NCBI GenBank assembly: GCA_001791745.1
Contig: MGFG01000010.1
Span: 69,573 to 104,174 of the forward strand
From: Candidatus Uhrbacteria bacterium RIFOXYC2_FULL_47_19
GTDB lineage: Bacteria; Patescibacteriota; Patescibacteriia; SG8-24
Length of the DNA stretch: 34,602 bases
Reading direction: 5' to 3'
The position numbers and the translations under genes were made by a program. This document shows, one piece after another, positions 25,482 to 31,755 of the stretch (positions are counted from its first letter, which is position 1; the number at the start of each line of letters is the position of its first letter). Under the pieces are notes generated by a model that saw only the letters and a program-made list of their open reading frames with translations, was not told the DNA's origin and did not search any database.

Positions 25482-26120
25482 TCAGTTCCACGATTGACGC
25501 TTATCGAAACCACCAGAAACCAGTACCGACGCCCCACGAGCACCGGGTACTGCTCCTTTAATAGCCAAAACGCCGTTCTTGGTGTCGACGTCAATGATTT
25601 CCAGATTCTTTACGGTGACACGATCCGTACCCATACGACCAGCCATGCGCATACCTTTAAACACGCGCTCAATTCCACCAGAACCGATCGAACCAGGCAT
25701 ACGAAGATTATCCTTGTGTCCATGGGAGGCCGGACCACCCTTGAAACCGTGACGCTTAACCACACCTTGAAAGCCACACCCTTTCGAGGTGGCAGTAACA
25801 TGAACGAACTCACCAGGATTGAATTGCGCGACCTCAACTGTGTCTCCGATCTTAAAATCAGCGGCGGACTCAACCCGAAACTCACTTAGTTCCCGAGAGA
25901 GCTTACCACTGATCTTCATGTGTCCTTGCTGTGGCTTAGCCACGAGCTTCTGACGAATTTCGCCACAACCGAGTTGAACGGCCTCGTAGCCATCACTATC
26001 AGAGGTTTTAATCTGCGTAACCACACAGGGTGTAACTTGAAGCAGTGTAACCGGAACCACAGTACCGTCTGCACGGAACCGCTGTGTCATTTCCAGTTTC
26101 TTAGCGATGATGAACTTCAT
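25482..26120 (-). CDS. rplC: 50S ribosomal protein L3
   Basis: MKFIIAKKLEMTQRFRADGTVVPVTLL; SKGCGFQGVVKRHGFKGGPASHGHKDNLRMPGSIG; start revised to 26120. Confidence 0.95.
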   Translation of the reverse strand: MKFIIAKKLEMTQRFRADGTVVPVTLLQVTPCVVTQIKTSDSDGYEAVQLGCGEIRQKLVAKPQQGHMKISGKLSRELSEFRVESAADFKIGDTVEVAQFNPGEFVHVTATSKGCGFQGVVKRHGFKGGPASHGHKDNLRMPGSIGSGGIERVFKGMRMAGRMGTDRVTVKNLEIIDVDTKNGVLAIKGAVPGARGASVLVSGGFDKRQSWN

Positions 26121-26240
26121 ACCTATTCCATTATGCTCATGAACGTCTAACCAATGTTGATTCATGGTCGAGACTTCAGTGGAGCACTTATCTTGAAAGT
26201 AGTCTGTTTTTATTCGGTCGTTCTGACCGTAAATCGCCTT

Positions 26241-26283
26241 ATAAACGAAAAGCCGGAACCCTCTTATTAGAGAAGCTTCCAGC
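26241..26283 (-). terminator. Terminator/attenuator-like hairpin just upstream of rplC
   Basis: Minus strand GCTGGAA-GC-TTCTC-TAATAA-GAGGG-TTCCGGC followed by TTTTCGTTT. Confidence 0.4.
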
Positions 26284-26351
26284 CGTAGTCCGTCGGGAAT
26301 CGTATGCCGGACAGCTCGAGAGTCCACCTTATTAGTGAACTTTCCAGCCGT
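26255..26351 (-). repeat. Two copies of a 32-nt hairpin motif in the rpsJ-rplC leader
   Basis: ACGGCTGGAAAGTTCACTAATAAGGTGGACTC (26351-26320) and ACGGCTGGAAGCTTCTCTAATAAGAGGGTTCC (26286-26255), 24/32 identical by eye. Confidence 0.6.
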
Positions 26352-26701
26352 CCGGTTCAGGATCACGGTCTTTGTAGGCCGTCCTGCCGACTCAGCGAAA
26401 CCTTGGCTTATTGTTCTTCGGAACGTTCCAATAGTGTAGGAGTTCCGGCGGTTTGATTGATCGAAGGCGGTTATTCTCCGTGGCCTATCAGGAGATGGCG
26501 GAGGTTTCCTTGACTCTTCCGTTCGTACAAACACGCACTGCGTATCTGTTTTCACTCAGCACCTACCCTGATACTTCTTTATTCCAAGGGCTGGTTTCTT
26601 GAACGACGCATCCGCGCCGCTCTACAAACAGTAAGATGTAAAGGTCTTTCTCCGTCTCTCCCGACAGACTTGATCTATTCGTTTCTCTATCTATCTACAA
26701 C

Positions 26702-26821
26702 GGCTTTCAGCATGGGATGAGCTGTGCCTGTCTGGAAGCAATTCTTTCAGCGAAGCGCACTTATCGGTGCGTTGAGCGAAGAATTGCTGAAGACGGGTGC
26801 AGATCGCCCATTATGGAAGCC
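26702..26821 (-). other. Structured RNA hairpin unit A (rpsJ 3' side)
   Basis: About 120-nt imperfect inverted repeat beginning 8 nt after the rpsJ stop; shares arm motifs with unit B. Confidence 0.7.
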
Positions 26822-26828
26822 AGATTCA

Positions 26829-27176
26829 CTACATTTTGATCTCTACGTCGACACCAGCCGGCAAATTCAAATTCGTCAGTGCTTCGACGGTCTTGGGGGT
26901 CGGATCATAGAGGTCAACCAAACGCTTGTGCACGCGCATCTCGTACTGATCACGAGAATCTTTGTGCACGAACGTAGAACGGTTGACCGTATATCTCCTT
27001 TTTTCCGTCGGAAGAGGCACTGGACCTCTGACTACCGCACCTGTCCTCTCCGCAGTCTCAATGATCGTGCGGGTGGTTTGGTCGATAATCTTATGGTCAT
27101 AAGCACGAATTCTAATACGAATTCTCTGCCTTGCCTCATCGTCAGTCTTCTTCGTTGTCTTCTTCTCAACGTCCAT
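26829..27176 (-). CDS. rpsJ: 30S ribosomal protein S10
   Basis: [47 protein letters not shown]. Confidence 0.95.
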
Positions 27177-27224: not shown

Positions 27225-28412
27225 TTACTTCAGAATCTTGGTGACTGTGCCAGCTCCAACGGTCCGACCACCCTCACGGATAGCGAACCTCATCTTCTCC
27301 TCGAGAGCTACGACCGAAATCAGCTTGACGGTACAGTTAACAGTATCGCCAGGCATGACCATTTCAGTACCCTCCGGTAACACGACCTCACCGGTCACGT
27401 CCGTGGTTCGGATGTAGAACTGTGGCTTGTAACCCTTGAAGAATGGCTTGTGACGACCACCTTCTTCCTTAGTCAAGGCGTAGACCTGGGCCTCGAACTC
27501 AGTGTGTGGCTTAACTGAACCAGTCTTAGCTAGAACCATACCGCGTTCCACTTCATCCTTCTTGGTACCACGGAGTAGGATGCCAGCATTGTCTCCAGCA
27601 CGACCCTCGTCGAGCTGTTTGTTGAACATTTCGATACCGGTCACAGTTGTCTTTCTGGTATCTCCTAGACCAATAATCTCAACCTCTTCGCCAACTTTGA
27701 TCATACCGCGCTCGATACGACCGGTAACCACCGTGCCGCGACCCTCAATACTGAACACGTCCTCAATCGGCATCAAGAATGGCTTGTCAATATCGCGAGT
27801 TGGTTCTGGAATAAATTCGTCGAGCTTGTCTAAAAGCTCTAATACCGGCTTAGCATCGTCTCCGGCAGGGTTGTTCAGAGCCTTAAGCGCCGAACCACGC
27901 ACGATCGGGGTGGTGTCTCCCGGGAAATCATATTTCTTTAATAGATCACGAATTTCCTCTTCGACTAGATCGATGAGTTCCGGATCCTCTACCTGATCAA
28001 CTTTGTTCAAGAAGACGACAATGTGAGGCACGCCGACCTGATGGGCCAGCAGAATGTGCTCGCGAGTCTGAGGCATGGGGCCGTCAGCAGCCGAAACAAC
28101 CAAGATGGCACCATCCATCTGAGCGGCACCAGTGATCATGTTCTTGATGTAGTCGGCGTGGCCGGGGCAGTCAACGTGCGCGTAGTGACGCTTCGCAGTC
28201 TCATACTCGCAGTGAGCGGTAGCAATAGTGATACCACGAGCCTTTGACTCCGGAGCCTTGTCCAGGTCGTCGACGCTCTTGTCCTGAGCGATGCCGCCAG
28301 TAGTCTTCAATACCTGCAGGATAGCGGCCGTAAGAGTGGTCTTACCGTGGTCAACATGACCGATGGTGCCCACATTCACGTGCGGCTTACTGCGATCGAA
28401 TTTCTCCGCCAT
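27225..28412 (-). CDS. tuf: Elongation factor Tu
   Basis: [38 protein letters not shown]. Confidence 0.97.
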
Positions 28413-29333: not shown

Positions 29334-29405
29334 GCCGAGTGAAAAACAACTTTTTGCCAACTTTGACTGCCTGACCTGAGAAGGCAGCCGTTGTCACCCC
29401 GACAA

Positions 29406-29460
29406 AACCAAAAAACCGCCGGAGGTGGTGTCACCAAGACACCAACCGTCCGACGGTCTT
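29406..29460 (-). terminator. Strong terminator downstream of fusA
   Basis: Minus strand ACCGTCGGACGGTTGGTGTC-TTGG-TGACACCACCTCCGGCGGTTTTTT. Confidence 0.8.
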
Positions 29461-29470
29461 TTTCATTTTC

Positions 29471-29687
29471 TGAGCTAGCGAAGGACGAAGACAGGTGCAA
29501 TGCGCCCGCAGCGAAAACCGCAGCTACTTTTTACAATCCGATCTTCAAAGGCGGGTTTCGATACGGGATGCAGTGTGTTTGTCTGGAGTCCGTCGCGACG
29601 CGAGCCGTACTAGACAAGTACGGTGAGCTAGCGAAGGACGAAGACAGGTGCAATGCGCCCGCAGCGAAAACCGCAGCTACTTTTTAC
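29471..29687. repeat. 64-bp perfect direct repeat, 153-bp period
   Basis: 29471-29534 and 29624-29687 identical by eye; the second copy covers the last codons and stop of fusA. Confidence 0.9.
29551..29674 (-). other. Structured RNA hairpin unit B (fusA 3' side)
   Basis: About 124-nt imperfect inverted repeat starting 3 nt after the fusA stop; GGGCGCATTGCACCTGTCTTC and TCCAGACAAACACACTGCATCCC arms match unit A. Confidence 0.75.
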
Positions 29688-31755
29688 CTTCTTTGATTTG
29701 CTCGGCAATGTTATTCGGCACCTCATCGTAGAAACTAAACTCCATCGAGTAGGAGGCGCGCCCTTGGGTCATGGACCGTAACTGAGTTGCATAACCAAAC
29801 ATCTCCGAAAGCGGTACCAAAGCGTCAACGATCTTAGCATTACCTCGATCGCGCATTTCTTTGATCTGTCCGCGTTTAGATGAAAGGTCACCAATAACGT
29901 CGCCCATGAAGTCTTCTGGTGTAATCACCTCAACACCCATGATCGGCTCGAGCATTACCGGACTTGCTTTGCGACAAGCATCTTGGAAAGCCATAGATGC
30001 CGCCACCTTGAAAGCGATTTCACTCGAGTCAACGTCATGATAAGAGCCGTCATACAACTCGACCTCGATGTCGACCAATGGATAACCGGCGATAACACCC
30101 TTGTCCATAGCCTCGCGACAACCCTTTTCAATAGCCGGAATAAATTCGCGTGGAATAACACCACCTTTAATTGCATCTTTGAACGTAAAGCCACTCCCCT
30201 TCACCTCAGACGGTCTAAGCTTCAAGTAACAATGACCATACTGACCACGACCACCAGACTGCTTGATGTACTTACCTTCAGCCTGAGCCTCGGTACGAAT
30301 AGTCTCACGATAAGCAACCTGAGGTTTACCGACAGTACACTCCACCTTGAACTCACGCTTCATGCGATCAACGATGATGTCGAGATGCAGCTCACCCATG
30401 CCAGAAATAATGGTCTGCAAAGTCTCGGTGTCAGTTCGTACTCGGAAAGTCGGATCTTCCTCAGCCAACTTCAAGAGAGCACCATCCATCTTCTCCTGAT
30501 CGACCTTAGTCTTCGGTTCCACAGCCAGCGAAATAACCGGCTCAGGGAAAGTCATCTTCTCTAAGACAATCGGATTCTTTTCGTCACACAAAGTGTCACC
30601 AGTGAAAGTCTTCTTGAAACCCACAGCTGCAGCAATATCGCCAGCCATGATCTCATCTACATCTTCACGCGAGTTAGCATGCAGACGAACAATCCGACCC
30701 ACACGCTCGCGGTCACCAGTCGTGGTGTTCAACACATAACTACCGGCCTTGATGATGCCAGAATAAACACGGAAAAAGCACAACTTACCAACAAACGGAT
30801 CAGCTGCAACCTTGAAGGCCAACGCAGCCAAAGGCTCGTTATCATCGGTTTTACGGAACAACTCTTTCTCCGGATTCTCTGGATCGATTCCTTTGACTGG
30901 CGGAACATCCAGAGGTGAAGGCAGATAATCATTCACTGCATCGAGCAACTTCTGAACACCCTTATTCTTGAGCGCTGTACCACAAAGCACGGGCACAATA
31001 TCCAAACTGATCGTTGCCTTACGCAGAACACGTTTCAGATCATCAATCGGAATTTCTTCACCAGCCAAATACTTATTCATCATCTCCTCATCATTTTCGA
31101 CGATGGCCTCGATCAACTTACCACGCCACTCTTCGGCCAGAGCCTTCATGTCTTCTGGTACATCTGTCTCCTCGACATCCTTCCCTAAGTCGTCCTTATA
31201 AATGAAGGCACGCATCTTAAGCAGATCGACGATGCCACTAAAATTGCTCTCTGTACCTATCGGCAGTTGGAGCGGATAAGCATTGGTAGTCAGACGATCA
31301 TGGATCGACTTGAGGTCGGCATAAAAGTCGGCTCCAGTTCGATCGAGCTTGTTAATGAAGCACATCCGCGGTACATGAAAATCATCGGCGTAATGCCAGT
31401 TGGTCTCGGACTGTGGCTCGACTCCAGCTACACCATCGAAGATAACAACTGCGCTATCCAGCACACGTAACGATCGTTTAACCTCGACTGTGAAGTCGAT
31501 ATGTCCAGGGGTGTCGATGATATTAATCTGATGGTCCTTCCAGAAACAGGTCGTCGCAGCGGCGGTAATAGTAATACCACGCTCGCGCTCCTGCTCCATC
31601 CAATCCATCTCGGCCGCACCCTCGTGTACTTCACCAATTTTGTGCTTTTTTCCGGTATAAAAGAGCACACGTTCAGACACTGTGGTCTTACCGGCATCAA
31701 TGTGAGCAATAATGCCGATGTTACGAATTTTCTCTAGTGGAAATTGCCTAGGCAT
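29677..31755 (-). CDS. fusA: Elongation factor G
   Basis: [35 protein letters not shown]; start revised to the ATG at 31755 rather than the TTG at 31806. Confidence 0.97.

Follow-up and report, generated by a model that had tools for sequence, protein, structure and literature searches.

In E. coli, the leader of the S10 operon acts through L4-dependent attenuation together with translational repression. There, L4 binds upstream elements and stabilises the NusA-paused polymerase at the attenuator hairpin, a mode of control described as pausing with NusA and stabilisation by L4, and not as an antiterminator switch; the E. coli L4 site is not widely conserved, even among gammaproteobacteria (PMC10931766). 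A survey of r-protein leaders (r-leaders) mentions a Firmicutes S10 r-leader, which by its name serves the same gene block, and presents an L4-Archaeoglobi candidate that precedes rplC-rplD-rplW-rplB (Eckert and Weinberg 2020, PMC7247131). That survey names no Patescibacteria, and its sole leader before rplC is the archaeal one (PMC7247131). In the open-licence literature, we found no report of such a leader in Patescibacteria.

Here, we analysed a window of 34,602 nucleotides from the 1.04 Mb genome of a Candidatus Uhrbacteria bacterium. Like the E. coli S10 leader, the locus described below would serve the L3-L4-L23-L2 block as a structured leader with a hairpin of the terminator type, and neither has an apparent general antiterminator. 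In contrast, the E. coli leader lies upstream of rpsJ and this one between rpsJ and rplC, and the likeness is one of gene block served and type of hairpin, without an Rfam match or a shown relation in sequence or structure. The L4-Archaeoglobi candidate, which shares the gene position, is archaeal and was graded borderline by its authors (PMC7247131). The Firmicutes leader belongs to another lineage, and Rfam families matched no tested locus. The element appears, from sequence comparison, to be an r-protein leader not described before, whose unusual part is an apparently permuted twin.

Results

A long gap between rpsJ and rplC is normal in the class

On the minus strand of the window, tuf (27225-28412) is followed by rpsJ, and rplC by rplD (L4) and the remaining S10/spc genes. 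The first-pass annotation had pointed to a 708-bp gap splitting rpsJ from rplC. Both the coordinates, with 708 nt separating the stop codon of rpsJ from the ATG of rplC at 26120, and the identification of S10 and L3 by Pfam bear this out.

26829-27176, minus strand: rpsJ (S10), the upstream gene (Pfam PF00338, E=8e-37)
26121-26828, minus strand: intergenic leader region between rpsJ and rplC (folding z-score of the entire gap -8.4 against 20 shuffles; 88% identity to the sister species across 500 nt, at the equivalent place)
25482-26120, minus strand: rplC (L3), the first downstream gene (Pfam PF00297)

A gap of 117-756 nt was present in all 26 class relatives in which the rpsJ-rplC junction was recovered, the range being 117-547 nt in the 25 that remain when the sister species is left aside. 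Among named Patescibacteria, such as Uhrbacteria, Falkowbacteria and Moranbacteria, the usual gap measures about 90-490 nt, and some gaps are longer; most of the non-Patescibacteria listed with them have gaps of 9-90 nt. A long gap is therefore normal in the class and not peculiar to this genome.

The repeat and hairpin A are lineage-restricted

The first-pass annotation had also proposed a duplicated hairpin motif. Indeed, ACGGCTGGAAAGTTCACTAATAAGGTGGACTC (from 26351) and ACGGCTGGAAGCTTCTCTAATAAGAGGGTTCC (from 26286) are identical at 24 of 32 positions. No other pair of 32-mers within the gap matches better, and 200 dinucleotide shuffles gave 23 at most, so that the duplication is real. The two hairpins named with it fold as had been described, the second being the terminator-like hairpin of the locus.

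26712-26809, minus strand: hairpin A, 98 nt, directly after rpsJ (-35.8 kcal/mol)
26307-26355, minus strand: hairpin B, CCGGAC...GTCCGG (-32.8 kcal/mol), by inspection shared with the sister species and with two other genera
26243-26284, minus strand: terminator-like hairpin (26284-26252) with its U-rich tail TTTTCGTTT, whose end lies about 130 nt upstream of rplC

As a functional signature, however, the repeat did not hold. In relatives, the gap proved conserved class-wide but the repeat motif did not; it is restricted to the genus of the window, as is the resemblance of hairpin B to the terminator hairpin. Neither the AATAA loops nor the repeat is kept even in the sister species, which has ATCATGAAG and CTGACAAG there. 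What is shared instead is the AAAGN/WAAC core described below.

Hairpin A is lineage-specific and its sequence is not conserved. A copy of it, 73% identical, lies elsewhere in the sister genome (L003:1501-1588), and many relatives carry a different long hairpin at its position. Hairpin A is possibly a dispersed palindrome or a protector of the 3' end of the tuf-rpsJ message.

A conserved core RNA lies upstream of rplC

A conserved core at 26669-26481, on the minus strand, had been absent from the features first listed for the gap. Visual inspection and then a descriptor search revealed its plan, which recurs in the majority of loci in the window's family and in many other loci: P1, P2, an internal loop 5'-AAAGN-3'/5'-WAAC-3' and P3, followed by AGGAGA. 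The window carries the following elements.

26481-26669, minus strand: core RNA (model R1), with P1, P2, internal loop AAAGA/AAAC and P3 (R1 match and covariation)
26650-26654, minus strand: P2 5' strand CGGAG, pairing with CUCCG at 26503-26499 (compensatory changes)
26645-26649, minus strand: internal-loop strand X, AAAGA (AAAG unchanged throughout alignment A2, of 15 sequences)
26512-26640, minus strand: structured, genus-specific insertion of about 130 nt in the P3 loop (R1 alignment; sister species too)
26504-26507, minus strand: internal-loop strand Y, AAAC (core alignment)
26499-26503, minus strand: P2 3' strand CUCCG (covariation)
26475-26479, minus strand: purine element GGAGA, just after P1 (near-constant place in relatives; permuted form too)

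With its 130-nt P3-loop insertion, common to the sister species, the window's copy is an unusual one. The secondary structure of the core is well supported by the comparative data. In the 15-sequence alignment, pairing held in 95.8% of P2/P3 cells and the covariation score was 0.617, versus 0.227 when shuffled and at most 0.204 with the pairing slid by 1-3 columns. Extending this to 41 model-aligned sequences gave 0.568 versus 0.221, a score flattered by an alignment that was fitted to the structure, and compensatory changes occurred in P1, P2 and P3. Within P2, they affected 4 of the 6 modelled pairs, and the two pairs adjacent to the loop were invariant.

We then considered the distribution of the core. 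The covariance model R1, run over 381 whole class genomes, found matches in 67, single copy in all but one. The best 30 class loci were without exception located between rpsJ and rplC; over half of the genomes behind them had played no part in building R1. A refined model, R3, found fewer genomes (34 versus 67), probably owing to a fast first look scoring few candidates, yet added six. Taking the best 30 together with L170, L171 and ten loci from R3, 42/42 checked class loci lay between rpsJ and rplC. Over 380 phylum-wide genomes, R1 found just two class members and two off-locus chance matches. In the window, it gave a single match (25.3 bits, E=3.8e-5), the next-best score in the genome being 14.1; the genome-wide search skips this copy, with its insertion, and a direct scan recovers it. 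No Rfam family reached its gathering score in the window gap or in the leader regions of 18 relatives. Altogether, the core combines a covariation-supported structure with a position consistently upstream of r-protein genes, two of the marks by which r-leaders are judged.

A second form at the same place has its loop strands in reversed order

Other families of the class, such as Falkowbacteria, have at the same place an element built as outer helix, WAAC, hairpin, AAGUG, outer helix. Its two loop strands resemble those of the first form but come in the opposite order, as a circular permutation would place them. In twelve sequences of this form, 90.5% of the cells were paired, and covariation, independent of that in the first form, scored 0.898 versus 0.323. 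The corresponding model, R2, matched in 28 of the 381 class genomes, 22 of these 28 matches being between rpsJ and rplC. In most of the latter, GGAGG or AAGGA stands about 20-28 nt past the core as the purine element, and a U tract lies 8-42 nt ahead of rplC. None of the loci inspected contained both forms.

We propose that Uhrbacteria and the window's order, on the one hand, and the related Falkowbacteria, on the other, may carry a single protein-binding module, made of GAAAGU and UAAC strands, in two topologies that differ by circular permutation. Both would occupy one position in the operon and be followed by the same purine element and terminator, with ligand and function kept. We hold this to be an even bet. 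Since the loop strands differ between the forms (AAAGN versus AAGUG), a true permutation is put forward as a hypothesis.

Two further elements were noticed. At the same junction, other Patescibacteria (L035, L046, L054, L024, L043, L063) have a third type, a stem with a 2-nt AU bulge, AGUCCC...GGGAUACU or GAUCCC...GGGAUAUC, which may be another r-leader family. The Magasanikbacteria gaps L065, L074 and L095 carry AAGAUC...GAAAAC, with an A-U closing pair instead of G-C and near-perfect promoters upstream, possibly a variant of the first form.

Terminator-like hairpins follow the core, and promoters precede it in some relatives

Downstream of the core, a hairpin with a U-rich tail was found in 35/40 loci (mean z -3.6 relative to shuffles of the sequence downstream), and its stem is conserved in several families (GGCUAGAAG...CUUCUGGCUUUU). 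A terminator scan of the window did not list the 26284-26252 hairpin, whose stem has a mismatch. A general antiterminator, pairing AAAGCC with GGCUUUU, did not exceed shuffles over 35 loci (mean z -0.2) and so does not account for the switch. The textbook antiterminator arrangement AAAUCCAGA / UCUGGAUUU / CCAGAUUUUU was seen only in the subgroup L020, L042 and L129.

Near-perfect promoters, that is, with at least 11/12 matches and a spacer of 16-18, occurred in 7/89 gaps versus 0.26 expected from shuffles. In these seven relatives, they sit after rpsJ and upstream of the core, and this suggests that rplC starts its own transcription unit, of which the core would be part. A looser scan showed no enrichment (14 versus 9.7), and the window's own gap has no consensus promoter.

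Discussion

Our best explanation is that the gap is an r-protein leader and attenuator of the operon from rplC onward (L3, L4, L23, L2 and so on), with L4 as the first candidate for the protein sensed; we give this reading a probability of about 0.65. The first-pass annotation had proposed a relocated attenuation leader that uncouples S10 from L3-L15. An attenuation leader with this effect is what best fits the class-wide gap, the covarying RNA at one place and the terminator-like hairpin. The notion of relocation fared less well: since rpsJ follows tuf in this lineage and the rplC operon probably starts at this point, the leader may simply head that operon.

How might such a leader work? The core, with P1-P2, the AAAGN/WAAC loop, P3 and AGGAGA, is the predicted protein-binding site. 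An r-protein encoded downstream, when in excess over rRNA, would bind the core and favour termination at the downstream hairpin, thereby lowering L3-L15 output and leaving tuf and S10 unaffected. The data show conservation, covariation, a fixed location and a terminator-like hairpin; the protein nature of the ligand, its identity, the direction of control and termination in vivo are what we infer. By analogy with the E. coli S10 leader, we tentatively name L4 as the first ligand candidate, at somewhat less than even odds, and L3 or others are possible instead. Mimicry of the rRNA binding site is seen in some r-leaders and is not obligatory; scans of the genome's own 23S locus with R1 and R2 gave chance-level scores only, and so lend L4 no independent support.

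The data had to be set against other explanations. A terminator-like hairpin in most loci and promoters after rpsJ in some relatives would also be expected of a constitutive partial attenuator or transcription-unit boundary, where the hairpin does no more than terminate the tuf-rpsJ transcript, rplC is transcribed from a promoter of its own and no ligand is sensed. We consider this unlikely, as it leaves unexplained the conserved internal loop, the constant purine element and the compensatory stems upstream of the terminator, and as the high-scoring promoters, being upstream of the core, place it in the rplC transcript. Control of the rplC operon by a small-molecule riboswitch or another non-protein sensor would fit the highly conserved internal-loop nucleotides followed by a terminator-like hairpin. 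Yet, with about one copy per genome, no Rfam riboswitch match, and the checked first-form class loci all before r-protein genes and none before metabolic genes, we find it improbable.

To two other possibilities we grant very little. The second copy of hairpin A in the sister genome and the genus-specific P3 insertion could recall an insertion scar or a mobile element in the operon, but relatives across the class have long gaps with the same core. A scar is thus ruled out for the core, could still apply to hairpin A, and as an account of the gap is highly improbable. The rplC frame, for its part, is open for 145 codons upstream in the window (ORF 25482-26555, without a stop), as if L3 had an N-terminal extension. 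In the sister species, however, a stop codon interrupts the frame 3 codons before rplC; substitutions between window and sister show no bias by codon position (15/21/19), indels are not multiples of three and the frame is broken in relatives. The sister sequence rules out a coding extension, whose chance we deem negligible, and hence the gap is noncoding.

If the leader reading is true, it would add an undescribed r-protein leader from a bacterial branch that is not mentioned in the survey PMC7247131, and would show how very small genomes could control the L3-L15 block separately from tuf and S10. The occurrence of both permuted forms at a single locus would then be a natural experiment on RNA-protein recognition surviving rearrangement of the chain.

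Incidentally, elsewhere in the window, at 29391-29696 on the plus strand and just past the fusA stop codon, we noticed two near-identical direct repeats, with 19 protein letters occurring twice in one frame.
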